Made by a program: the position numbers and the translations under genes | Shown here: one piece after another, positions 15,175-28,206 of the stretch | Position numbering within the stretch: the first letter of the stretch is position 1 | Layout of the letters: each line of letters begins with the position of its first letter | NCBI GenBank assembly: GCA_003157875.1 | Contig: PMKV01000170.1 | Span: 1 to 33,632 of the forward strand | DNA: 33,632 nucleotides | Source of the DNA: Chloroflexota bacterium | Lineage (GTDB): Bacteria; Chloroflexota; Limnocylindria; Limnocylindrales; CSP1-4 | Direction: 5' to 3' | The notes under the pieces: generated by a model | Told to the model about the DNA's origin: nothing | Databases searched by the model: none | What the model saw: only the letters and a program-made list of their open reading frames with translations

Positions 15175-15179
15175 CTAGC
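15170..15179. other. Palindrome carrying the two abutting convergent stop codons
   Basis: The ten bases gctagctagc are a perfect palindrome. It contains the TAG of tyrS (15172-15174, plus) and the TAG of hisIE (15175-15177, minus) back to back, so the two genes end with zero bases between them. No stem-loop terminator is visible nearby, so read-through into the opposite gene seems likely unless Rho acts. Confidence 0.7.
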
Positions 15180-15894
15180 CCTTATGACGCTCCCGCAGTC
15201 GCGTGATGACCGCGGCCGGCGGCAGGTCGCGCTCCCATAGCAGGACGAGGGTGTGGTAGAGCAGGTCCGCGACTTCACCGGTCAGGGCGTCGCGCGTCGC
15301 GGAACGTGAGTCAGGCGATGCCGTGGCGTCGTCCTTCGCCGCCATGAGGACCTCGGTTGCCTCCTCGGTCACTTTGCGTGCCGGCGCGTCCACGCCGCCG
15401 GCCAGGAGCCGCGCGGTATAACTGGCCGCAGGATCGGCGCCGGAACGCGCGTCGATAGTGGCCCACAGCGTCTCGAGCCACTCGAAACCCTGACCCGACG
15501 GGGGAGTGAGGGCCGGCTCGGGCGCCGCCGGAGCGAGCCGCGCCCCCGGACCCTCGACCGGGACGGCCCCGATCGCGTCGAAGCAGCTGCGAGTGTTGCG
15601 ATGGCACGTCGGGCCGGTTGGGCTGACCTGCAGCAGCAGCGCGTCGCCGTCGCAATCCAGCGTGATGTCCAGCAGGCGCAGGACGTTGCCGCTCGTCTCG
15701 CCCTTGCGCCACAAACGGTCGCGGGAACGGGAGTGGAAGTGGACCTGACCCGTGGCCAGGCTGGCGGCGAGTGCCTCGGCGTCGACCCAGGCGACCATCA
15801 GGACGCGGCCATCGGCGGCATCCTGAACCACGGCCGGAACCAGTCCGGAGGATCCCCAGGCCACATCCTGCTCGCGGAAAGCCTTGTCGATCAT
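15175..15894 (-). CDS. hisIE: Bifunctional phosphoribosyl-AMP cyclohydrolase/phosphoribosyl-ATP pyrophosphatase
   Basis: This 239-residue fusion performs steps 2 and 3 of histidine synthesis. The HisI half (about 1-115) shows [30 protein letters not shown] and the metal site [11 protein letters not shown]...CHRNTRSCF. After a Pro/Ala-rich linker (about 118-140), the HisE half (about 141-239) has [37 protein letters not shown] and the end [16 protein letters not shown], a MazG-like helical fold. It is the last gene of the operon. Its ATG overlaps the hisF stop by four bases (ATGA). Confidence 0.95.
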
Positions 15895-16682
15895 GCGTCC
15901 CTCCCTTCTAGCTGTCGGACCGGCAAGCCGGCCGCCGCCATGGCCGCTTTGACATCCGCAATCGAGAAGATCCGGCGGTGGAAGATCGAGGCAGCGAGAA
16001 CCGCGTCGGCCTTGCCGTCTCGGACCGCCGTGACGAAGTCATCGGGCCCGGCCGCGCCTCCAGAGGCGATGACCGGCACGCGAACACGCGTGGCGATCTC
16101 GGCCAGCAGCTGCGTGTCGAAGCCGCTGCGAGTGCCGTCGCGATCCATCGACGTCACCAGCAGCTCACCGGCTCCCATCCCCACGGCTCGAATGGCCCAC
16201 TCGACGGCCTCGAGCTCGGTCGTTCGGCGGCCGCCGTGCGTGACGACCTCCCACCTCTGCTCGGCGCCGTCGGGGCGGGGGAGCCGGCGAGCGTCGATGG
16301 CACACACCACCGCCTGGCTGCCGAAACGATCGGCGCAGGCGGCCAGGAGCGCCGGGTCGGCGACGGCCGCGGTGTTGAACGAAACCTTGTCCGCGCCGGC
16401 TCGCAGCACGTCGCGCATCTCGTCGACGCTGCGCACGCCGCCGCCCACGGTCAGTGGCACGAAGGCACGCGATGCCGTCCGGCGCACAACTTCGAGCATC
16501 GTGCCCCGACGTTCGTGGGCCGCTGTTATGTCCAGGAACACGATCTCGTCGGCGCCCTCATGGGCATACCGCTCCGCCAGTTCGGCCGGATCGCCCTCAT
16601 CGGTCAGGTTGAGGAACCTGGTGCCCTTGACGACCCGACCCTTGTCGACGTCCAGGCAGGGGATGACACGGCGGGCCAGCAT
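15891..16682 (-). CDS. hisF: Imidazole glycerol phosphate synthase, cyclase subunit
   Basis: This 263-residue (beta/alpha)8 barrel uses ammonia from HisH to convert PRFAR to imidazole glycerol phosphate and AICAR. It starts [20 protein letters not shown], with the catalytic Asp11. The second catalytic Asp130 lies in CAIDARR, and phosphate-binding motifs LTVGGGVRS and [13 protein letters not shown] are present. The loop after Asp130 ([19 protein letters not shown]) matches the family. The start codon shares one base with the hisH stop (TGATG), so the two subunits are translationally coupled. Confidence 0.96.
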
Positions 16683-17347
16683 CAGGCCACCGGCGCCCCG
16701 GCCGCGTCGGAGCCCGCCGCGCTGGCGCCAGCCGCAACCAGCCCGACGAAATTGGCCAACACCCGGAGTCCGGCCTCGGACGACTTCTCGGGGTGGAACT
16801 GCAGGCCGTAGAGCGAGCCCTTCGCCACCGCGCTGACGAACGGCCGACCGTGCGTCGTGCGGGCCACGACTATGCCCTCGTCCGACGGCACCGGCGCGAA
16901 CGAGTGGACGAAGTAGAAGTACGAACCGTCGGCCACGCCATCGAACAAAGGGTGTGGACGAACGGCGTCGACCGAGTTCCAGCCGATGTGCGGGAGGGTC
17001 GGCGCGTCGACGAGGCCCACCGTCCGCCCCGCGAGGAGCCCGAGGGCCTGCGCATCGGCCTCGTCGCTCGCGTCGAAGAAGAGCTGGAACCCGAGGCAGA
17101 TGCCGAGGCAGGGACGCCCGGCACGGACCCATTCGCGGAGTGGCTCTGAGAGACCGCGTTCGCGAAGGTGAACCATGGCCGGAGCCGCGGCGCCGACACC
17201 CGGGATCACGATCGCGTCGATGCCGCTCAGCGCCGATGGCTCCGCGGCAACGACCGCCTCGGCCCCGACCGCGGTCAGGGCCTTGGTGATGCTGACCATG
17301 TTCGCGGCCCCGTAGTCGAGCACGGCAACCCGGACCGGGCCAGTCAT
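16682..17347 (-). CDS. hisH: Imidazole glycerol phosphate synthase, glutamine amidotransferase subunit
   Basis: This 221-residue class I glutamine amidotransferase supplies ammonia to HisF. It has [13 protein letters not shown] at the start, GVGAAAPAM in the oxyanion-strand region, the nucleophile Cys84 in [10 protein letters not shown], and the His185-Pro-Glu187 dyad in [21 protein letters not shown] differs slightly from the common GVGAFGDAM, without loss of a catalytic residue. The tail beyond about residue 205 is an Ala/Gly-rich extension. It overlaps hisB by four bases. Confidence 0.96.
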
Positions 17348-17964
17348 CCGAGAGAGCCCTTCGTGGAGGCAGGGCCCTTCCGCCGCGGATCAACGACGAC
17401 GGCCGAGCACAGCGCGCGGCCCAGCGCCTTGAACGCGGCCTCGGCGAGGTGGTGGTCGTTGCGGCCACGGCCCTTGACGTTCAGGGTCACTCCGCCGGCC
17501 CGAGCGAACGACTCGAAGACGTGTTCGATCAGCTCGAGCGGCAGCTTGCCGGCGCGCTTGCCCTTGAACGGCAGATCGACGACCGCGTATGGACGCCCGC
17601 CGACGTCGACGACGGCCGTGGCCACAGATTCGTCCATCGGAACGGCTGCGTCGCCGAAGCGGGCGATCCCGCCCCGATCGCCGAGGGCCTGAGCGAAGGC
17701 CGCGCCAACCACCAGCGCCACATCCTCGACGGTGTGGTGCTCGTCGACGATCAGGTCGCCGCTGGCGCCCACCTCGAGGTCGAAGAGCGCGTGATGAGCC
17801 AGCGCATTCAGCAGGTGGTCGAAGAAGCCGACACCCGTGTCGATCTTGGTATCGCCGCTCCCGTCGAGCTTGAGGGTCACCGTGATCTGGGTCTCGCGGG
17901 TCGAGCGGGCAACGGTGGCCCAGCGGTCACCCGAGGCGACGACCTTGCCGATCTGATTGGTCAT
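17344..17964 (-). CDS. hisB: Imidazoleglycerol-phosphate dehydratase
   Basis: This 206-residue enzyme dehydrates imidazole glycerol phosphate to imidazole acetol phosphate, using manganese bound by duplicated His motifs. Visible are [32 protein letters not shown] and the second-half [17 protein letters not shown]. There is no N-terminal phosphatase domain, unlike the fused enterobacterial HisB. Histidinol-phosphate phosphatase must therefore be encoded elsewhere. The start overlaps the hisC stop by four bases. Confidence 0.96.
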
Positions 17965-19064
17965 GCGGTTATCCCCCTGGCGGCTTCCATGAGGCGGTCG
18001 TTCTCTGCCTCGGACCGAACGGTGAACCGCAGGCAGTCCGCGAGCGGGTGCTCGGGGCCGAAGGTCCGGGGCACGAGACCCTTGCGAAGCAACGCTTCGG
18101 CCGCGCCGGTCGCGGCGGCCGGCGAGCTGAACCGGACCAGAATGAAGTTGGCGGTGGAGGGGTGCGGCCGCCAGCCCAGCTCCATCAGATCGAGGAAGAG
18201 GCGCGTCCTCTCGACGGTAGTGCGGTTGACGATGGCCGCAACGAGGTCGGGTCGCCGCAGTGAGGCAGTCGCCAGGGCAGCCGAAACCGTGCCCACCGAA
18301 GCCGGCGCTCGATAGGCCATGATCGGAGCCAGGGTTTCCGGCCGGGCAACCGCGAACCCGACTCTGATGCCTGCCAACGCGTGGGCCTTGCTCAGCGTCC
18401 TGATCACCACGAGCTTCGGGTAGTGGGACCGAAGCGGCAATACGCTTCGATCCACAAACTCGGCGTAGGCCTCATCCACGGCCACGACCGGTGCCTCGCG
18501 GCCGTTGCTTGCAGCGTCCGCCTCCAATCGCTCCAACAGATCTGCGACGCGCTCGGGCGGCATGTAGGTCCCGGTTGGATTGTTCGGCTCGCACAGCCAC
18601 ACAAGGCTGGCGGTGCGCGCCGCCCTGACGATCGCCGGGGTGTCCGGCGTAAAGGTAGCGTCGCGCCGCGGCGCGGTGACCACCCTGGCGCCACGCTGTT
18701 CGGAGACGATCCGATACATGTCGTACGTTGGCGGCACGATCACAGCCACCGAGCCCTCGCGGAGCGTCGCCCGGGCGATCAAGTCGATCGCTTCATCCGC
18801 CCCGGCCGTGGGAAGCAACTCGTCCGGCGAGACGCCGTATGACTCAGCCGCAGCCTCTACCAGCGTTGCGTAGTCGCTGGGTGGGTACTCGCAGAGCGCC
18901 GGGTCGAACTGCCCGGTGAGGACGTCGCGCATGTCCGGGGCAACCGGCGAGGTGTTCACGTCGAAGCGAACGATCGACTCTTGCGGCAGGCCGTACCTGG
19001 CCGCGAGCGCATCGGTCGTCGGCTCCCAGGTGTAGGTCGGCAGGGTCGTGGCCGGCGTGTTCAT
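17961..19064 (-). CDS. hisC: Histidinol-phosphate aminotransferase
   Basis: This 367-residue fold-type I PLP enzyme converts imidazole acetol phosphate to histidinol phosphate. It shows RFDVNTSPVAP, YPPSDYATLVEAAA, the CEPNNPTGTYMP substrate/PLP motif (about 158-170), VDEAYAEF, and the PLP-binding Lys226 in TLSKAHALAGIRVGF. A C-terminal small domain ends LRFTVRSEAENDRLM. The ATG is preceded by an excellent Shine-Dalgarno (gaaggaggaga on the minus strand), the strongest inside the operon. It overlaps the hisD stop by four bases. Aromatic aminotransferase side activity is possible in this family. Confidence 0.94.
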   Translation of the reverse strand: MNTPATTLPTYTWEPTTDALAARYGLPQESIVRFDVNTSPVAPDMRDVLTGQFDPALCEYPPSDYATLVEAAAESYGVSPDELLPTAGADEAIDLIARATLREGSVAVIVPPTYDMYRIVSEQRGARVVTAPRRDATFTPDTPAIVRAARTASLVWLCEPNNPTGTYMPPERVADLLERLEADAASNGREAPVVAVDEAYAEFVDRSVLPLRSHYPKLVVIRTLSKAHALAGIRVGFAVARPETLAPIMAYRAPASVGTVSAALATASLRRPDLVAAIVNRTTVERTRLFLDLMELGWRPHPSTANFILVRFSSPAAATGAAEALLRKGLVPRTFGPEHPLADCLRFTVRSEAENDRLMEAARGITA

Positions 19065-20395
19065 TCTCCTCCTTCAAATCGCAGCTCAACGGCGCGCTTG
19101 TGGGCGATCAAGCCCTCGGCCTCCGAGATCGCCTCCACGGAGTCGCGTATCGAGGCCAGGCCATCGCGGGTGATGCGCTGGACCTGGATGAATTTACCGT
19201 AGCTCTCGGTCGAGAGCGCGCCGCACGACCTGGCCAGGCCTCCGGTCGGCAGGACGTGGTTGGCCCCCGAGGCATAGTCGCCGGCCGACTCGGGCGCATA
19301 GGGCCCAACGAAGAGCGATCCGGCATTGCGCAGCCGGGCGACGGCCTCCTCCACGTCGTCGACCACCACAGAGAGATGTTCCGGCGCGTACCCGTTGACG
19401 AACTCGAGGGCCGCGCCGCGGCTCGGCGCCAGCACGACGACTGCACCGGTGGCGAGCGAACGTTCCAGGATTGCCCGGCGGGCGGAGGTTTCGAGCTGCC
19501 GAGCAAGCTCTCGTTCGACGGCGGCAGCCAGACCGGCATCCCACGTCACGAGCAGGGCAGGGGAGTCGGGGCCGTGCTCGGCCTGGGAGAGAAGATCCGA
19601 GGCGACATGAGCGGGATCGGCCGTGGCGTCGGCAACGACCATCACTTCGGACGGCCCGGCCGGCAGGTCGATGCCGCACTCGCCGAAGACCTCCAGTTTC
19701 GCCGCCGTAACCCATGAGTTGCCGGGGCCCACGATCCGATCGACCGCCTCGATGCCCGCGTCCGGGAGCCCGTATGCCATCGCCCCGACCGCCTGTGCGC
19801 CGCCGGCAACGACGAACTGGTCGACACCGGCGAGCCCCGCCGCGCCGAGGAGCGTGGCGTTGAGCCTGCCCTCGGCGTCGGCCGGGGAGGCGACAACGAT
19901 CCGCTCGACTCCGGCTACCGTGGCCGGAACGACGCCCATTAGGAGCGAGCTCGGGTAGGCCGCGGAGCCGCCCGGCGCGTATACGCCGACGCTGGCAAGG
20001 GGCACCCAGCGGCGTTCGATCTCCACGCCCGGGACGATGACCGTCGTCCTGGTCTGCGGCAGCTCCGTTTCCGCGAAGCGGCGGATGTTGGCGATCATCT
20101 GCTCCAGGCCGGCCCGGATCAGCGGCGTCAGCGCGTCTCGGGCCGACTCCATCTCGGCCCGGCTCACGAGGAGCGAGCCGCCGGCCCGACCGCCACCGAA
20201 ACGGCCGTTGGCCTCGCGAACGGCCGCGTCTCCGCCCGTCTTGATCGAAGCGAGAATGGCGCGGGCGCCTTCACGAACCCGCGCGTCCGGAACCGCGCCG
20301 CGACGGAATAGGCCGCGGACCTCGGCGGCCACGGTCGGGTCGGAGGAGACGCGGCCGAGATCGAGGCGGCGCAGGGTGACCATCGGGGCACTCAT
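19061..20395 (-). CDS. hisD: Histidinol dehydrogenase
   Basis: This 444-residue zinc enzyme oxidises histidinol to histidine in two NAD-dependent steps. The family signature is intact: VGVYAPGGSAAYPSSLLM, GGAQAVGAMAYG, IVGPGNSWVTAAK, and the zinc ligands expected from the E. coli enzyme at Gln271, His274 (SQAEHGPDS), Asp373 (AGDYASGANH) and His432. The catalytic Glu339-His340 pair lies in YAPEHLSV. The ATG (20393-20395) overlaps the hisG stop by four bases. A second in-frame ATG four codons in (20381-20383) is possible. A longer frame reaching 20506 lies within hisG and is rejected. Confidence 0.95.
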   Translation of the reverse strand: MSAPMVTLRRLDLGRVSSDPTVAAEVRGLFRRGAVPDARVREGARAILASIKTGGDAAVREANGRFGGGRAGGSLLVSRAEMESARDALTPLIRAGLEQMIANIRRFAETELPQTRTTVIVPGVEIERRWVPLASVGVYAPGGSAAYPSSLLMGVVPATVAGVERIVVASPADAEGRLNATLLGAAGLAGVDQFVVAGGAQAVGAMAYGLPDAGIEAVDRIVGPGNSWVTAAKLEVFGECGIDLPAGPSEVMVVADATADPAHVASDLLSQAEHGPDSPALLVTWDAGLAAAVERELARQLETSARRAILERSLATGAVVVLAPSRGAALEFVNGYAPEHLSVVVDDVEEAVARLRNAGSLFVGPYAPESAGDYASGANHVLPTGGLARSCGALSTESYGKFIQVQRITRDGLASIRDSVEAISEAEGLIAHKRAVELRFEGGE

Positions 20396-21252
20396 GACAC
20401 GAGCTTCTCGATGGGCAGGATCAGGATGCCCGACGCGCCGGCGGCCTTGAGACGCGGCAGCAGCGACCACACCTGGTCCGCGTCGACGACCGAGTGGATG
20501 GCGCACATCCCTGCGTGGGCCAACGGGATGATCGACGGCGACTCGAGACCCGGCAGGAGATCCTCCAGCTCGGTCAACTTGGTGAGAGGGGCGTTCATCA
20601 TCAGATACTTGCGGTCCCGCGCCGCCAGCGTCGCGCCGAGCATCGTCTCGATCGAGTCGATAACCTCCGGCCGGCCATCGAGAGCGCCCTTGTTCGCCAG
20701 CAGAACCGCCTCCGAATCGAAGACCTCCTCGATCGGCCGCAGGCCGTTCACCACCATCGTCGAACCGGTGGAGACCAGGTCCACGATCGCCTCGGCCAGG
20801 CCAAGCCTCGGCGCAACTTCGGCGGCGCCCGAGACCGGTATGACGTTCACGGGTATCGACCGGCTCGCGAAGAACTGCCGGGTCAGGTTCATGTGCGAGG
20901 TGGCGACGCGAAGCCCGGCCAGATCCTCGGCCGCTCGAATCGGCGAGTCGTTGGGGACGGCGATCGTAAGCCGGCAGCGCCCGTAGCCGAGCTTGCGGAC
21001 CTGCGGCACATCGCTCCCGGACTCGGCCACGAGATCCAGGCCGGTGACTCCGAGCTCCGCCACGCCGTCGTTGATGAACTCGACGATGTCGTTGGTCCTA
21101 ACGAAGAGGATGTCCAGATCGAAGTTCTGGACGCGGGCCACGAGCGCCCTCTCGCCGGTTTCGAAGACGAGGCCGGCATCGCGCAGAAGGGCGACCGTCG
21201 GCTCGACGAGCCGGCCCTTGTTCGGGATTGCCAGTCTCAGGCGGCGGATCAT
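20392..21252 (-). CDS. hisG: ATP phosphoribosyltransferase, long form
   Basis: This 286-residue enzyme makes the committed first step, ATP plus PRPP to phosphoribosyl-ATP. It starts RLRLAIPNKGRLVEPT and continues with VRTNDIVEFINDGVAELGVTG, written here in two parts as VRTNDIVEFI and DGVAELGVTG, then VATSHMNLTRQFF and EAIVDLVSTGSTMVVNGL. The C-terminal ~75 residues (from about 212) form the ACT-like regulatory domain, so it is the HisG-L type, which is inhibited by histidine and needs no HisZ. The ATG begins directly after the yerC TAG with no spacing, suggesting translational re-initiation. Confidence 0.95.
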   Translation of the reverse strand: MIRRLRLAIPNKGRLVEPTVALLRDAGLVFETGERALVARVQNFDLDILFVRTNDIVEFINDGVAELGVTGLDLVAESGSDVPQVRKLGYGRCRLTIAVPNDSPIRAAEDLAGLRVATSHMNLTRQFFASRSIPVNVIPVSGAAEVAPRLGLAEAIVDLVSTGSTMVVNGLRPIEEVFDSEAVLLANKGALDGRPEVIDSIETMLGATLAARDRKYLMMNAPLTKLTELEDLLPGLESPSIIPLAHAGMCAIHSVVDADQVWSLLPRLKAAGASGILILPIEKLVS

Positions 21253-21616: not shown

Positions 21617-21638
21617 TAGTAGCATAGTAGCATGCTAC
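21617..21638. promoter_or_regulatory. Candidate operator: tandem TAGTAGCA repeat ending in a GTAGCATGCTAC palindrome
   Basis: Two head-to-tail tagtagca units (21617-21624 and 21625-21632) run into tgctac, giving the perfect 12-base palindrome gtagcatgctac at 21627-21638. The hisA ATG (21632-21634) lies at the centre of the palindrome. The site sits in the shared 58-base control region of yerC-his and hisA and is one of the few AT-containing stretches nearby. The obvious candidate binder is YerC, by analogy with TrpR autoregulation; this is inference. Confidence 0.5.
21620..21625 (+). promoter_or_regulatory. Candidate -10 element for leaderless hisA mRNA
   Basis: TAGCAT matches four of six positions of TATAAT and lies at -12 to -7 relative to the A of the hisA ATG. 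No Shine-Dalgarno precedes that ATG. This is the spacing expected when transcription starts at the start codon itself. No good -35 hexamer is visible 16-18 bases further upstream. Confidence 0.4.
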
Positions 21639-22396
21639 AACGCCTGCCGCCTATTCCCGCCGGTTTCCAGCTCCTACCCGCGATCGACCTGCGCGGCGGT
21701 CAGGTGGTGCGCCTTGCGGAAGGGGATTTCGGGCGCGAAACGGTCTACGGGTCGGATCCGGCACGAGTGGTTCGCCGCTTCGCGGCTGCCGGCGCACACT
21801 GGATCCACATCGTCGACCTGGACGGCGCCAGGGATGGAGTGCGGCGCCAGACCGATGCGGTCATGCGCATCCTCGCGGCCGCGGGGCAGGCGATCGCCTG
21901 CGAAGTAGCCGGGGGACTTCGAGACGAAGGCGCAGTGGCGGCGCTGATCGATGCCGGCGCGGCACGAGCCGTCGTCGGCACAGCGGCGCTGCGCGATCCG
22001 GCGTTCGTGGAACGGCTCGTGGTGCGGTTCGGGGCGGATCGGATCGCGGTCGCCCTGGATGTTCGTGACGGGATGGCCGTCGGTCAGGGCTGGGTTCCCG
22101 GGGCGGCCGGCGTACCGGCCGACGGGGCGCTCGCCGCCCTGGCCGACCGCGGCGTCCGCACGTTTGTCGTCACGGCGATCGAGCGTGACGGACTGCTCAC
22201 GGGTCCCAACCTGGGACTGCTGGCTCACATGGTCGAGCGGGATCGCGGCGCGATCGTGGCATCGGCCGGAGTCTCGTCGCTGGCCGACATATCCGCCGTG
22301 CGCTCGATCGGCTGCGCCGGCGCCATCGTCGGTCGCGCGATCTACGAAGGCCGCCTCGACCTTGCCGAAGCATTGGGCCTTACCGAAGCCGGATGA
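21632..22396 (+). CDS. hisA: 1-(5-phosphoribosyl)-5-[(5-phosphoribosylamino)methylideneamino]imidazole-4-carboxamide isomerase
   Basis: This 254-residue (beta/alpha)8 isomerase opens the ribose of ProFAR to give PRFAR, the HisF substrate. The barrel begins at about residue 14 with LLPAIDLRGGQVVRL (catalytic Asp19). It has HIVDLDGARDG, CEVAGGLRDEG, the second Asp143 in VALDVRDG, TAIERDGLLTGPN and ASAGVSSLADI. The 13 residues before the barrel are longer than usual, yet this ATG is the only possible start. It is unusual that hisA stands apart and divergent instead of lying between hisH and hisF. A dual HisA/TrpF (PriA-like) activity cannot be judged from sequence. It converges on the LCP gene with 7 bases between stops. 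Confidence 0.95.
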   Translation: MLQRLPPIPAGFQLLPAIDLRGGQVVRLAEGDFGRETVYGSDPARVVRRFAAAGAHWIHIVDLDGARDGVRRQTDAVMRILAAAGQAIACEVAGGLRDEGAVAALIDAGAARAVVGTAALRDPAFVERLVVRFGADRIAVALDVRDGMAVGQGWVPGAAGVPADGALAALADRGVRTFVVTAIERDGLLTGPNLGLLAHMVERDRGAIVASAGVSSLADISAVRSIGCAGAIVGRAIYEGRLDLAEALGLTEAG

Positions 22397-22403
22397 CGGT
22401 CGG

Positions 22404-23717
22404 CTAGCAGGTCGCCGGCTGCGTCTTGCCGCTGTAGCGGCTGTCTGCTCCGAAGAGCTTCACCGACAAAGGCGCCACCTTCGCCAGGTCGAGACAGCTC
22501 GTTGACGCCGTGGCGGTAGAGGTCGAAACGCTGTAGGGCGGGCCGAGCACGTAGCTGTCGAAGTTGCCCGACGGCACGGACTGGACGAAGTCGACCATAT
22601 CGGCCACGCCCGACGCGGGGAAGTTGGTCGTCACGAGTGAGGAGGCCTGCCCCATCAGGTCGGGCAGACGAATGACCATGGCGGGCGTCGCCATCTTGTG
22701 GGCCACAGCCACCAGGACCTGCTGCTGCCTGCCGGCGCGCGCGTAGTCGCTGTTGCCGCTGCCGTGTCTGGATCGGACGTATGCAAGGGCGTTGCGACCG
22801 TTGAGGTGGTGAGTGCCGGCCGACAACCGGAACCCGTACGGAGACCCGTCGAGCCAGTCATAGGACGGATCGTCGATCGCCGCCGGATTGGTGATGTCCA
22901 CGCCACCGACCATGTCGATGATCTGCATGAAGCTCCCGAGGTCCAGCACGCCGTAGTAGTTGATCGGCACTCCCACCAGGAAGCTCACCTCGTTGACGAG
23001 CGTGGTCACGGGCGGATCCGGCGAATTGAGCCAGCCGTTCTTGACGTAGGTAGGAATGGAGTTGATCTTGATCTTGCCCGTCCCACCCCAGTACAGCGGA
23101 TAGCCGGAGGTGTCGCGCGGGACGCTGACCATGGCGACGCGATTCGTGTCCTTGTCGATGCTCACGACCATCAGAGAGTCGTAGAGACGCTCCGAACGCG
23201 TCACGTACTGGTCCAGACCGGCCAGCAGGACGGTAACTCGCGGACCGCTTGCCGGTGCCATGGCAGGCTCGGCCCCGAGGCCACCAACGTTGAAGATTCC
23301 GAGGTCCATCTGGTATGCCGACCCTACGTACCAGGCACCCAGGGCATGGCTGGCGACGATTGCCACCAGGAGGATGCATAGCGCGAGGCGCTCCCCGAGT
23401 CGCCGCCTGGACCGTACGTCGGCCGCTGAGAAGGCATGGACGACCGACCACAGCCGCCACGCCCCCAACACCAGCACGGCCGCGAAGACAGCCGCCGCGA
23501 CAGTCGGGTCGAGAAGCCGGGCGACCAGGACGGCCGCGCCCCGGCGGGCCTCGAACAAGACGACTCCGGCCACCACGACCACGGGGACCGCGAAGAAGAC
23601 GGCGGCGATCCGCCTGCGGACGTAGACCTGGCCAAGGCCGGGCAGGAGGAACGACAGGATTGCGGCCAGCGACGGAGACACTGGACTCGGCGAGGCCGCG
23701 GTTCGGGAGTTGCGCAC
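22404..23717 (-). CDS. LytR-CpsA-Psr (LCP) family cell-wall polymer ligase with N-terminal multi-pass membrane domain
   Basis: LCP enzymes transfer undecaprenyl-linked glycopolymers onto peptidoglycan outside the membrane. The LCP domain covers about residues 155-345 of 437. It has VTVLLAGLDQY, DSLMVVSIDKDTNRVAMVSV with PRDT, KINSIPTYVKNG, YYGVLDLGSFMQIIDMVGG and ALAYVRSRHGSGNSDYARAG with its Arg residues. In front is a region with about four membrane segments starting SLAAILSFLLPGLGQVYVRR, a PG-x-GQ-x-Y motif seen in TM2-like proteins. The GTG at 23715-23717 is preferred: an extended -10-like tgctagagt lies just upstream on the minus strand. A longer GTG start at 23777 would run through a hairpin and rare codons (CTA, ACA, TTG). 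A short C-terminal domain ends in Cys. Confidence 0.88.
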   Translation of the reverse strand: MRNSRTAASPSPVSPSLAAILSFLLPGLGQVYVRRRIAAVFFAVPVVVVAGVVLFEARRGAAVLVARLLDPTVAAAVFAAVLVLGAWRLWSVVHAFSAADVRSRRRLGERLALCILLVAIVASHALGAWYVGSAYQMDLGIFNVGGLGAEPAMAPASGPRVTVLLAGLDQYVTRSERLYDSLMVVSIDKDTNRVAMVSVPRDTSGYPLYWGGTGKIKINSIPTYVKNGWLNSPDPPVTTLVNEVSFLVGVPINYYGVLDLGSFMQIIDMVGGVDITNPAAIDDPSYDWLDGSPYGFRLSAGTHHLNGRNALAYVRSRHGSGNSDYARAGRQQQVLVAVAHKMATPAMVIRLPDLMGQASSLVTTNFPASGVADMVDFVQSVPSGNFDSYVLGPPYSVSTSTATASTSCLDLAKVAPLSVKLFGADSRYSGKTQPATC

Positions 23718-23748
23718 GTCCAACGACTCTAGCAGTGTTCGTAGGAAA

Positions 23749-23814
23749 GGACCCTCGGGACGGGCAGGGTCCGGCACCAGTTACGTTGATGAAGGGTCCC
23801 TTTGCGAATCGCAA
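23749..23814. promoter_or_regulatory. Cluster of three dyads upstream of the LCP gene
   Basis: Three inverted repeats lie within 66 bases. They are ggaccct/agggtcc (23749-23755 and 23766-23772), aaggg-t-ccctt (23792-23802), and ttgcga-a-tcgcaa (23802-23814). The first two share the core gggtcc. On the minus strand the first forms a 7-bp hairpin followed by tttcc, like a weak terminator or attenuator ahead of the LCP gene. The third is a clean 13-base operator-like palindrome. No regulator can be named. Confidence 0.4.
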
Positions 23815-23950: not shown

Positions 23951-24087
23951 TACGATCCCGGTACTTGGCGGCGTCGCCCTGTGGCTCTCTCCGATCCGGG
24001 CGCGAGGAACGGCCGTGTGCCCCATCGAACAGCCACGGCAAGGCACGCGGGCCCCGCGCCGGCCGGTGCGGGGCCCGCTATTTGTGT
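23951..24087 (+). ncRNA. Possible structured RNA ending in an intrinsic terminator
   Basis: The 401-base stretch 23718-24118 holds no convincing gene. Its right part can fold on the plus strand as a series: cccgg (23957-23961) with ccggg (23997-24001), gccgtg (24012-24017) with cacggc (24034-24039), then the strong terminator hairpin at 24047-24078. A TACGAT -10-like element lies at 23951. No plus-strand gene is available to be the terminated transcript, so a small RNA is one explanation. RNase P, tmRNA, SRP and T-box signatures were looked for and not found. The 5' end is a guess. Confidence 0.2.
24047..24087 (+). terminator. Strong GC hairpin with T-rich tail
   Basis: The arm gcgggccccgc (24047-24057) pairs perfectly with gcggggcccgc (24068-24078) across a ten-base loop and is followed on the plus strand by tatttgtgt. 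This looks like an intrinsic terminator reading plus. It also lies 41 bases beyond the stop of the minus-strand gene at 24119, so it could end that transcript as well, although no T-run follows on that strand. Confidence 0.65.
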
Positions 24088-24118: not shown

Positions 24119-24502
24119 CTACATCGGCGGCACGTCGTTGCACCAGTACTGCCACCCATGCCCGTAGTCAGTGACGAGCCACGGTTGGACGCGCCACGAT
24201 CCCAAACCCGGATCGCGCCCCGCCGCGTACGCCAGGCCGCATCCTCCCGACACTCCTCTCTCATTACCGTTGAGCACGAACACCGTCGTTCCGTTGGTCA
24301 CTCTCACGGCCTCGACGCGGATCAGGCCGACCCACCCTGCCTCGGCCTGCATTCCCCTTTCAGCCCGGGCGGCCGCCTGCTCCAGCTGAGACCGGCTCAA
24401 TTCGAAACGAACGGCCATCGGCAGGTCCGACTGAACCAGCCCCCAGGTCAGCAGAACCAGGGCCGGAATGCCGAGCCATCGCGCCCAGGCCGCACGTGGC
24501 AT
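24119..24502 (-). CDS. Unrecognised single-pass membrane protein, third member of a tandem paralogue array
   Basis: The function is not recognised. The 127-residue protein has one N-terminal membrane segment (about 8-24) followed by an outside domain. RFELS stands at 32-36, WVGL at 57-60, CGLAYA from Cys88, and a C-terminal WQYWC with Cys121. The RFxLS-to-Cys distance (56) and the Cys-Cys distance (33) match those of the two upstream paralogues, so a disulfide-stabilised extracytoplasmic domain is likely. The ATG at 24500-24502 is the natural start; its Shine-Dalgarno (ggag) is distant, 12 bases. A TTG inside the end of the preceding gene would add about 40 residues and is possible. It is the shortest of the three, lacking the extra membrane segments of the others. 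Confidence 0.65.
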   Translation of the reverse strand: MPRAAWARWLGIPALVLLTWGLVQSDLPMAVRFELSRSQLEQAAARAERGMQAEAGWVGLIRVEAVRVTNGTTVFVLNGNERGVSGGCGLAYAAGRDPGLGSWRVQPWLVTDYGHGWQYWCNDVPPM

Positions 24503-24575
24503 ATGGAGCCGGGTCTCCGACGCAGCCCATCGCTGCCATTCGCCGTCACCACTCGTGACTCCGGCGACCGGTCTA

Positions 24576-25229
24576 CTACCCCCCCGAGTAACAAGCAAAC
24601 CACCAGCCTCCGCCAAGATCCGTCTCCTGGGAGAAGCGCTGCGGTTTGACGCCGGCTGGCCAATACCCGATCCCGCAAGACGCGAGCAAGCCCGCACCGG
24701 GAATGGCGAAGAAGTCACCGCCGTCTACCTGTTCGGCATCGCCCACCGGCATCAGACCTACGTCTAGGCTGTGGTAGATAGGGCCGCTCGTCTCAACCTG
24801 CAACCGCGCGTCTTCGAACGCCGGCCGGCTCAGCTCGAACCGCACTCGGAACGGCGCGCCGCTTTCCGCGACCGCAAAACAGAGAAGCAGGACAAGGGGT
24901 AGGCCGAACGACACCTTGAGAGACTCCGCGCGCGACCAATCCCGTGGACCAATCGCCCTGACAAACCAGGCGGCAGCGAGAAGCAGACCCACGAGAATGC
25001 AGAGCAGGCGCCCCAACGCATTGGCCTGCGACTCACTCGCGATCAGACCGAGGCCCACTACCGCCGCAATGACGTAGGCACGACGCCAGAACAGCGATGA
25101 TGCGTCGCGGTCAGAATCGTCAACTCGGTGTCGCCTTCGAGCCGCACGTGCCGGCGATTGGCCGAGCGGCATCCCGTCCAGGCCAAGCGGAACAGTCCGA
25201 ACCCCACGCTCGGGAGATCGGTTGTCCAT
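24576..25229 (-). CDS. Unrecognised multi-pass membrane protein, second member of a tandem paralogue array
   Basis: The function is not recognised. The 217-residue protein starts with a polar, arginine-rich cytoplasmic segment (1-50), then three membrane segments (about 51-66, 72-91, 106-122). The shared domain follows: RFELS at 130-134, VGL at 157-159, CGIGYWPAG from Cys185 and GGGWWFAC with Cys213. The Cys-Cys distance is 28, against 33 in the other two. The ATG at 25227-25229 is preceded by a strong ggaggagggg Shine-Dalgarno; a GTG six codons upstream is less likely. The gene ends in two consecutive TAG codons. It follows the first paralogue by 43 bases, inside which lies a 19-base copy of the end of the EF-G-like gene. 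Confidence 0.75.
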   Translation of the reverse strand: MDNRSPERGVRTVPLGLDGMPLGQSPARAARRRHRVDDSDRDASSLFWRRAYVIAAVVGLGLIASESQANALGRLLCILVGLLLAAAWFVRAIGPRDWSRAESLKVSFGLPLVLLLCFAVAESGAPFRVRFELSRPAFEDARLQVETSGPIYHSLDVGLMPVGDAEQVDGGDFFAIPGAGLLASCGIGYWPAGVKPQRFSQETDLGGGWWFACYSGG

Positions 25230-25245
25230 TTCCCCCTCCTCCCTC

Positions 25246-25264
25246 ACTCCTTGTGCGCGGCCTC
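25246..25264 (-). repeat. 19-bp direct repeat, copy in the spacer between paralogues
   Basis: The plus-strand sequence actccttgtgcgcggcctc occurs here and again, base for base, at 26121-26139. The second copy encodes the last residues (EAAHKE) and part of the stop of the EF-G-like gene. Here it lies in non-coding sequence 8 bases after the first paralogue's stop, and its AAGGAG end contributes to the region just before the second paralogue. Confidence 0.9.
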
Positions 25265-25272
25265 AGCGTCGA

Positions 25273-26073
25273 TCAGTCTCCGTATCGGGTCCCCTGGCAG
25301 CCATACCACCAATCCTGGCCGAGAGATCGGACGCTCCAGGAGGTGGTGATCCAATTGTCGAAGGCGGGGGTTTGCTGAGGGGCATACGCGAAGCTGCACA
25401 ACCCGGACGAGTCTGTTGGCAGCGTCAGATCGAAGAACCGGATCGGCCCGTCCACCCTAACGTCATAGAACTCGTACAGGCCGATCCACCGCAACCCGTA
25501 GCCCGTGCTGACGTTGGTCTGGCTCGCGGTTTGCTGCATGGCCGACTCACTGAGATCGAAGCGAACGATCGACGGAACCGATGACCCGATCACGATGAAC
25601 GCTGCCAGGAAGATCGCCGGTGGGGTCCCCCAGCGCACCCAACCCCGGCGGTCGTAGCGCCAGTGGCTGCCCTGTGTGTCGTTGATCAGAGCGACGAGCC
25701 ATACCAGGCCGACCAGCATTCCGACCGCCACGGATATGTTCTCGACGTAGCCGAGGTCGACGCCACTCGCGCCGACGATGCCGAAGCACGCAACCAGCAC
25801 CGCGACCAGGCAGAACATCGGGCCGGGCCGGAACGGCGGCCTCTGATCGTAGGGAGACTTCAGCGGACGGTAGTAGCCTGCCGGAACCGGCGGCCACAGG
25901 GCGCCCGGTGCGGGGGCTGGGAATTGGGGACTCCATCCGCCGCCCGGAGGACTCGCCGGCGGCGGCCACGAGGTGAACTGGGGTGGAGCGCCGGGCGTCG
26001 CCGTGGACGGTCCTTGCGCACTGTCGGGCACCGGCACGTCACCAGGTGTGACCGGTTCAGGGGTATCCGACAA
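25273..26073 (-). CDS. Unrecognised multi-pass membrane protein with proline-rich N-terminus, first member of a tandem paralogue array
   Basis: The function is not recognised. The 266-residue protein has an 80-residue Pro/Gly/Ala-rich cytoplasmic segment, three membrane segments (about 87-105, 113-131, 151-168) and then the domain shared with its two neighbours. That domain has RFDLS at 171-175, WIGLY at 196-200, CSFAYAP from Cys226 and DWWYGC with Cys259. The Cys-Cys spacing is 33 and RFxLS-to-Cys is 55. The start is a TTG, chosen because gggaggg lies four bases upstream; no ATG or GTG is available near it. It stands 45 bases after the EF-G-like gene, beyond a terminator-like hairpin. Proline-rich N-termini in front of small membrane domains are common in high-GC Gram-positive-type bacteria; no function follows from that. 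Confidence 0.75.
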   Translation of the reverse strand: MSDTPEPVTPGDVPVPDSAQGPSTATPGAPPQFTSWPPPASPPGGGWSPQFPAPAPGALWPPVPAGYYRPLKSPYDQRPPFRPGPMFCLVAVLVACFGIVGASGVDLGYVENISVAVGMLVGLVWLVALINDTQGSHWRYDRRGWVRWGTPPAIFLAAFIVIGSSVPSIVRFDLSESAMQQTASQTNVSTGYGLRWIGLYEFYDVRVDGPIRFFDLTLPTDSSGLCSFAYAPQQTPAFDNWITTSWSVRSLGQDWWYGCQGTRYGD

Positions 26074-26086
26074 ATCGCCCTCCCTT

Positions 26087-26114
26087 CGAAAAGAGCTCGG
26101 CGGCCCAGGCCGCC
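26087..26114 (-). terminator. Terminator-like hairpin after the EF-G-like gene
   Basis: On the minus strand, four bases after the EF-G-like stop codon, ggcggcc-tg-ggccgcc forms a 7-bp stem (26099-26114). It is followed after gagctc by a run of four T (26089-26092). The gap between stem and T-run is longer than ideal, so termination may be partial. It would lower expression of the three membrane-protein genes relative to the GTPase. Confidence 0.5.
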
Positions 26115-26118
26115 CCGC

Positions 26119-28206
26119 CTACTCCTTGTGCGCGGCCTCCTGCGCCTTCTTGTGGGCCTCGATCACCTTCTCGGCGATGTGCTGCGGCACGTCCTCATAG
26201 CGGTCCAGGGTGGCCGTGAAGGTCCCCCGGCCGCCGGTGATCGAGCGCAGTTCCGTGGCGTAGGTGAAGAGCTCGGCCTGGGGCACGGTGGCGGTGATGA
26301 TCTGCATCCCATCCTTCACGTCCATGCCCAGGACGCGTCCACGGCGACCGTTGAGGTCGCGGTTGACGTCGCCCATGTAGATCTCGGGGATGCGGATCTC
26401 GACCGTCATGATCGGCTCCATGAGAGCCGGCTTGCATTCCAGGACGCCCTGCTTGAGGGCCATCGACGCGGCGATCTTGAACGAGAGCTCGTTGGAGTCG
26501 ACGGCGTGGAAGGAGCCGTCGTACAAGGTCGCCTTGAAGTCGCTGAGTGGGTAGCCGGCCAGGACGCCCTCGGCCGCGGCCTCGCGAACGCCCTTCTCGA
26601 CGCCCGGGAAGAAGTTCTTGGGAACGGTGCCGCCGACCACGTGCTCGGCAAACTCGACCCCGCCGCCGTGATTCGGCTCGATCTCGAGCCAGACGTCGCC
26701 GAACATGCCGTGGCCGCCGGTCTGCTTCTTGTAGCGGCCGTGGCTCTGGGTCTTGCCGCGGATCGTCTCTTTGTAGGCAACCCTGGGGATCTTGGTCACG
26801 ATGGCGGCCCCGAACTTGCGCTTGAGGCGCTCGCCGAGGACGGCAACGTGCGCGTCGCCCATCGACAGCAGAATCTGCTCCCCGGTCTCCGAGCGTTCGA
26901 CTCGAGCGGACGGCTCCTCCTCGAGCATTCGCTGCAGGGCAGAGCCCATCTTGTCGAGGTCCGCCTTCGTCTGCGGCTCGATCGCCGACTGGAGCGTGGG
27001 GATCGGGAAGACGAGCGGCGGCAGTATGAAGGCCGTCTCGTGAGAGTGGCATAGCGTGTCGCCGGTCGCCGTGACGGTCAGCTTTGCCACCGCGCCTATC
27101 TCGCCGGCATGAAGCTGGCCAACTGTCTCCTGGTCCTTGCCGCGCAGCAGCAGCAGCTGGCCGACGCGCTCCGCTTCGTTGCGGGTGGCGTTCCAGGCGG
27201 CGCCCTGGCCCTGCAGCGTGCCGGAGAGCACCCGGATGTAGGTCAGGCGGCCGACGAACGGGTCGGCTGTGGTCTTGAAGACGCGAACCACGACCGGGCC
27301 GGCGGCGTCCTGGGCGATCTTGACTTCCTTGCCCTTGCCGTCCGTGGCGACGATCTCGCCCAGCTCGGCCGGGGAGGGGAGATAGTGTTCGATGGCGTCG
27401 ATGAGCGCTCGAACGCCGATGTCCTTGCCGGCGCTGCCGACCATGACCGGCGCCACCAAGCCGGACCGGACGGCCTTGTGGAGGCAAGCCTCCAGCTCGG
27501 CGTCGCTGATCTCTTCGCCCTCGAGGTACTTGGTCATGACGTCGTCGTCGGCCTCGGATGCCGCCTCGAGGAGCTGATCGCGTCGCGTGGCGACCTCGTC
27601 GGCGAGGGCCGCCGGGACCGGAACTTCGACTTCCTTGCCACCCTGCACCTGATAGGCCTTGCGGTGGATCAGGTCCACGTAGCCCACGAACGACTCGCCG
27701 GCGCCGATCGCGACGTGGAGCGGCGCGATCTTCTGGCCGAAGGAGGTCCGCAGAGCGTCCAGGGCGGCAGCGGGATTCGCGTTCTCGCGGTCGCACTTGT
27801 TTATGAAGAAGAGGGCGGGGCGGCCGTTCGTGCGAGCCAGCGCCACCGCGGACTCGAGTCCGGCCTCGACGTGGCCGGAGGCGTCCATGAGCAGGACCGC
27901 CGTGTCGGTGGCGGCGAAGCCCTCGACGACCTCGGCCGAGAAGTCGGCGTATCCGGGGGTGTCGACCAGCTGGATCCTCGTCCCCTCGTGCTCCAGGCTG
28001 GCGACCGCGAGCGTCAGCGACTGCTTGCGCTTCTGCTCTTCGGGCTCGTAGTCCAAGCTCGCCGTGCCGTCGTCGACCCGACCGAGTCGGGTGATCGCGC
28101 CGGCATCGAAGAGGAGGCGCTCGGCCAGCGTCGTCTTGCCGGCCCCGGCGTGGGCGGCCAAAACGACGCTGCGAAGGTGGGGGAGGTCGACGCTCTTGGT
28201 TGTCAT
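26119..28206 (-). CDS. Elongation factor G-like protein (EF-G paralogue, EF-G2 type)
   Basis: This 695-residue translational GTPase has the five-domain EF-G architecture. G1 is AHAGAGKTT at 18-26, G3 is DTPGYADF at 82-89, G4 is NKCD at 136-139, and a G5-like GSA lies near 258. Domain IV (about 465-600) shows KTQSHGRYKKQTGGHGMFGD, and the C-terminus has the EF-G V fold. It departs from canonical EF-G: G1 is AHAGAGK instead of GHVDAGK, switch I has EEQKRKQSLT where EF-G has ERGIT, and the G3 histidine of DTPGH is tyrosine. These are traits of the EF-G2/EF-G-like clade (Thermus EF-G-2, mycobacterial FusA2), so the housekeeping fusA is expected elsewhere. The role is uncertain. Start ATG 28204-28206; divergent from yebC. 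Confidence 0.88.
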   Translation of the reverse strand: MTTKSVDLPHLRSVVLAAHAGAGKTTLAERLLFDAGAITRLGRVDDGTASLDYEPEEQKRKQSLTLAVASLEHEGTRIQLVDTPGYADFSAEVVEGFAATDTAVLLMDASGHVEAGLESAVALARTNGRPALFFINKCDRENANPAAALDALRTSFGQKIAPLHVAIGAGESFVGYVDLIHRKAYQVQGGKEVEVPVPAALADEVATRRDQLLEAASEADDDVMTKYLEGEEISDAELEACLHKAVRSGLVAPVMVGSAGKDIGVRALIDAIEHYLPSPAELGEIVATDGKGKEVKIAQDAAGPVVVRVFKTTADPFVGRLTYIRVLSGTLQGQGAAWNATRNEAERVGQLLLLRGKDQETVGQLHAGEIGAVAKLTVTATGDTLCHSHETAFILPPLVFPIPTLQSAIEPQTKADLDKMGSALQRMLEEEPSARVERSETGEQILLSMGDAHVAVLGERLKRKFGAAIVTKIPRVAYKETIRGKTQSHGRYKKQTGGHGMFGDVWLEIEPNHGGGVEFAEHVVGGTVPKNFFPGVEKGVREAAAEGVLAGYPLSDFKATLYDGSFHAVDSNELSFKIAASMALKQGVLECKPALMEPIMTVEIRIPEIYMGDVNRDLNGRRGRVLGMDVKDGMQIITATVPQAELFTYATELRSITGGRGTFTATLDRYEDVPQHIAEKVIEAHKKAQEAAHKE
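26121..26139 (-). repeat. 19-bp direct repeat, copy at the 3' end of the EF-G-like gene
   Basis: This is the coding copy of the repeat described at 25246-25264. On the minus strand it spans the codons for the last residues of the EF-G-like protein and the first two bases of its stop codon. Immediately outside the 19 bases the two copies differ. Confidence 0.9.

Follow-up and report, generated by a model that had tools for sequence, protein, structure and literature searches.

Three tandem paralogues of an uncatalogued membrane-protein family beside an EF-G-like gene in a Chloroflexota genome

In the window, by which we mean the whole 33,632-nucleotide stretch of DNA analyzed here, three adjacent genes (A, B, and C) are well supported by sequence comparison as tandem paralogues, that is, as ancient copies of a single small membrane protein. 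Profile comparison further indicates that proteins encoded on Rhodococcus plasmids are homologous to the Chloroflexota members, and the family is thus not confined to one phylum. A sequence-only reading of this DNA had described three consecutive minus-strand genes of the lengths given in Table 1, and all the reading frames were found in place.

Table 1. Coordinates of the array and of flanking features in the window
Feature	Position	Strand	Remark
Paralogue A	25273..26073	-	266 aa, TTG start
Paralogue B	24576..25229	-	217 aa from ATG; 223 aa if GTG at 25247 is the start
Paralogue C	24119..24502	-	127 aa; ATG at 24502 is the sole plausible start
In-frame trace upstream of the ATG of C (..ETRLH)	24503..24526	-	homologue of the loop joining TM2 and TM3 in the G052 protein
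EF-G-like GTPase gene	26119..28206	-	immediately upstream of A; landmark of the slot conserved across the genus
Terminator-like hairpin	26099..26114	-	lies between A and the EF-G-like gene; identified by consensus match alone
14-bp G+C-rich inverted repeat	24047..24078	.	after C; T-rich tail on the + strand

Paralogue A starts with a Pro-rich N-terminus, followed by three transmembrane (TM) segments at about 87-105, 112-130, and 152-170, and a C-terminal domain containing the motif RFDLS at 171, Cys226, and Cys259. Paralogue B, the most divergent copy, resembles A in having three TM segments and ends in that C-terminal domain as well, here with the motif RFELS; its ATG is preceded by a strong Shine-Dalgarno sequence, GGAGGAGGGGG. 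Paralogue C has a single TM segment and then the C-terminal domain. As shown by alignment, the stretch ETRLH-MPRAAWARW across the ATG of C matched DTRLH-MPRRSWARW of the G052 protein, which is the loop after TM2. Because only about 70 bases separate the stop codon of B from the ATG of C, TM1 and TM2 of C are gone. Judged from this match, C is an N-terminally truncated copy that retains a remnant of the lost N-terminal part upstream of its ATG, so its topology would reflect a deletion and not a design. The sequence-only reading had the proteins differing in membrane topology, which holds for C alone, as a truncated copy; A and B both showed three hydrophobic segments by hydropathy. The one TM segment of C lay below the hydropathy cut-off used, but it is helical in the predicted model and homologous to TM3 of A and B.

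Pairwise blastp comparison gave E-values of 4e-18 for A-C, 2e-11 for B-C, and 7e-4 for A-B, and the z-scores against 2000 composition-preserving shuffles, calculated for the domain including the last TM segment, were 24, 17, and 10, respectively. When the part after RFxLS was compared alone (2000 shuffles), z was 15 for A-C, 6 for B-C, and a marginal 3.2 for A-B; the case for membership of B therefore depends on its similarity to C and to the family profile. B matched the family profile at 1e-45, with B itself included in that profile, and a broader profile built without B at 9e-26. The motif spacings noted earlier were exact (55, 55, and 56 residues from RFxLS to the first Cys; 33, 28, and 33 between the two Cys). 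The accompanying statement of little other identity was too low, as the domains are about 30-33% identical.

The TM2-TM3 loop is Arg-rich (4 K/R), whereas the TM1-TM2 loop of A contains no K/R. By the positive-inside rule, this places the N-terminus putatively inside and the C-terminal domain outside the membrane, a topology based on hydropathy, charges, and prediction from 12 sequences. The AlphaFold model of A had a pLDDT of 73, with the domain blocks mostly at 77-91, and that of C a pLDDT of 83 and a pTM of 0.72. Both models showed the same order of elements, namely the last TM helix, a juxtamembrane helix, a series of short strands, one short helix, and two final strands, in which the strands after the juxtamembrane helix form a beta meander of 6-7 strands. 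Superposition of all three predicted domains had been proposed as a check; the models cover A and C, where the same fold means the same element order, derived from alignments that are related and hence not independent. Together with the homology, this agreement supports the view of one fold that was duplicated and diversified. The conserved core consists of Gly, Trp, Tyr, and Pro, and looks structural, with no obvious catalytic set.

The two motif Cys residues are located in the fifth and the last of the predicted strands. Each of the ten domains known from the genus contains both, and neither was found in the two relatives from other genera or in the ten Rhodococcus proteins. The Cys pair is thus probably a genus-specific addition, which fits a disulfide gained once; since it is confined to one lineage, it counts as a single event and not as strong covariation. 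The disulfide-closed fold of the sequence-only reading held in part: a disulfide is plausible, with the Cys residues either both present or both absent, but it is a lineage trait and does not define the fold. Separately, two Rhodococcus relatives (P0001 and P0004; L043 2719-3276 and L045 2501-3058) have an alternative Cys pair in the helix and an early strand, which, in these two close sequences, fits an oxidising location.

Searches against Pfam and NCBIfam gave no family above the curated cut-off, and neither PADLOC (anti-phage defence) nor PHROGs (phage proteins) gave a match above cut-off, in agreement with the earlier description of the family as unrecognised. Candidate matches were rejected as follows. 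8xMP (PF24838) touched only the TM segments of B at 19.6 of the 30 bits needed, and DUF1109/NrsF (PF06532) touched the TM segments of 1 of 21 members at a sub-threshold 18.7 of 26.8 bits. The PDB sequence-profile match 8ga6, a repeat protein, and the TM similarity to CrgA were judged composition artefacts. Foldseek comparison of the A and C models with the PDB and BFVD showed no match at E <= 0.001. Furthermore, no relatives were found in viral contigs searched with the domain of A or in phage records searched with a Rhodococcus relative.

Next, we analyzed the distribution of the family in Chloroflexota. Of the 107 genomes of the taxonomic family searched, 21 belong to the window's genus, and 8 of these had members; two other genera contributed one genome with a member each, and G082, from a third other genus, contained a C-terminal fragment of a member. 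A 400-genome draw from the phylum, in which fewer candidates were scored, returned only the window and the two other-genus members, and a scan of the whole genome collection gave nothing beyond these two loci. In all genomes of the genus that have the family, its position is directly downstream of one EF-G-like gene, the same throughout; seven other species have a single copy in this slot, and the window is the only multi-copy case. The completeness of the metagenome-assembled genomes (MAGs), 69-95%, may inflate absences; nonetheless, the slot was read directly in 12 congeners, and none had a member. In the sister species G039 and G051, whose EF-G-like genes are near-identical, both flanks aligned and the 0.6-kb gene was absent from G051; the stretch after the gene aligned at 84% over 133 bases. 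A functional link to EF-G was rejected, because the 12 congeners retain EF-G without the family gene. Whether the array always sits beside that gene had been raised earlier, and it does not: next to the seven single copies and the 12 genomes without one, relatives elsewhere lie in other contexts. In the gene tree, A grouped with G045, G042, G047, and G049 at a support of 99/99. C and B fell outside this group, near G052, and B was on a very long branch (1.68); the deeper forks are weak. From this placement, the duplication probably predates the splits of G045, G042, G047, and G049, with later losses.

Some features around the array were also recorded. The inverted repeat after C is a candidate transcript end. 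A LytR-CpsA-Psr (LCP) glycopolymer transferase gene occupies 22404-23777 (-), and several congeners have a similar long gene after the slot. Two congeners that lack the family have, between the EF-G-like and LCP genes, an unrelated gene for a secreted-looking protein (L091 316-1437 and L092 373-1425). Farther along, a histidine biosynthesis run (15175-21252, -) encodes PRA-CH/PRA-PH, a His_biosynth protein, IGPD, an aminotransferase, HisD, and HisG, accompanied by a divergent HisA-type gene at 21632-22396 (+).

The Rhodococcus proteins were reached by tblastn with a majority-style domain consensus of our own making, at E 1e-3, and ten were gathered by iteration. Comparison with the Chloroflexota set by hhalign gave 98.4% and E 1e-14 over 137 columns, and the similarity extended to the outside part alone (96.5%, E 9.9e-10). 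In whole-profile controls, one reversed and 20 column-shuffled, E was 0.006 or higher. Two relatives in Rhodococcus pyridinivorans lie side by side in convergent orientation, and hence neighbouring paralogues also occur outside the window. In R. pyridinivorans Y6 (L049 2752-3393), a relative is split over two annotated frames, which suggests a broken copy or a sequencing error. No paper naming the Rhodococcus accessions was found in the literature library searched. Relatives may also occur in Streptomyces; the one 1.8-Mb Streptomyces plasmid searched contained no family member. A Novosphingobium match at E 7 was treated as chance.

We propose, tentatively and as a reading nearly balanced between right and wrong, that the genes represent an uncatalogued membrane-protein family whose role, taken jointly with its anatomy, would be that of a dispensable surface-facing binding module. 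The TM hairpin and the third TM segment would anchor the protein with its N-terminus inside, and the juxtamembrane helix (RFxLSRxxxEqaA) would lead outward to a small beta-meander domain exposed at the outer surface of the cytoplasmic membrane; in this genus, a disulfide linking two late strands would brace the domain. The module may bind an envelope or external partner; it would be fast-evolving and dispensable, tandem copies could diversify what is bound, and C would be a truncated copy retaining anchor and domain only. The patchy presence, the fast divergence, and a sister species from which the gene is cleanly missing point to a dispensable accessory trait. The binding role alone is unlikely: neither solved structures nor viral predicted ones match the model, so that binding is conjectured from the anatomy, and it is in this sense that we infer the function of the family. 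The main rival holds that the array is decaying, with A alone working and B and C as degenerating leftovers of an old duplication. The loss of TM1-TM2 from C, whose inter-TM loop homology extends past its only ATG, the long branch of B with a GC3 of 70.5% against 79% in A, and the single copies of seven congeners all fit this. However, the frame of B is intact, with its strong Shine-Dalgarno sequence and conserved residues kept, and the domain of C retains every motif and both Cys, with a GC3 of 78%. Decay is possible, if on the unlikely side.

A sensor or signalling receptor with a constant outer domain and a variable inner part, as suggested by the sequence-only reading, would agree with the variable N-termini above a conserved outside domain. 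However, no cytoplasmic domain match and no signalling partner or regulator gene was found within the array, C has almost no cytoplasmic part, and the Pro-rich tails vary freely, which makes a sensor very improbable; no evidence emerged for the role in envelope decoration that had been offered with it. It is also quite improbable that the genes represent a plasmid or host-exchange trait (immunity or surface exclusion), in which a mobile accessory membrane protein blocks an external agent. All Rhodococcus relatives came from plasmid records, some beside recombinase or transposition genes, and presence within the genus is patchy; yet the plasmid location means little, since the collection searched for that phylum consists of plasmids only, the PADLOC, PHROGs, phage, and viral-contig searches gave no match, and the chromosomal slot is fixed in the genus. 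The displayed binding module is the reading that asks least. A wider version of it, which we consider improbable, would be an unnamed family across at least two phyla whose membrane-anchored outside beta-meander domains bind some partner and have been copied locally and diversified in the manner of surface proteins for immunity or recognition, the disulfide having been invented in one Chloroflexota genus.

The finding alone reveals no new mechanism. It joins orphan hypothetical proteins of two phyla in one family missing from Pfam and NCBIfam, and it provides resources for function tests: alignment A9 as a profile, a fold prediction, and the sister species G039 and G051, which form a natural pair with and without the gene.

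Compared with known systems, DUF1109/NrsF (PF06532) has in common with the family only the name given by annotators to some Rhodococcus relatives, a label shown here to be unsupported. The loci from other genera of the same taxonomic family, L026 (UBA5189 MAG) and L027 (MGR_bin130 MAG), have the same architecture and motifs; unlike the members in the genus, they lack the Cys pair, are single copy, and do not lie beside EF-G. Similarly, the Rhodococcus relatives (WP_102799522.1, WP_011600415.1, WP_138845882.1, and WP_168581051.1, annotated as hypothetical protein or DUF1109 domain-containing protein) differ in lacking the genus Cys pair, in their gene neighbourhoods, and in low pairwise identity (16-28% to L026), whereas they share the TM segments, the motif W-x-W/R-W...P preceding the last of these, the F-x-x-S/xR-P/x-x-FE-x-A helix, the V/I-G strand, G-x-A/I-Y-S-P-x-G-x-P, and the final G-x-W-Y.
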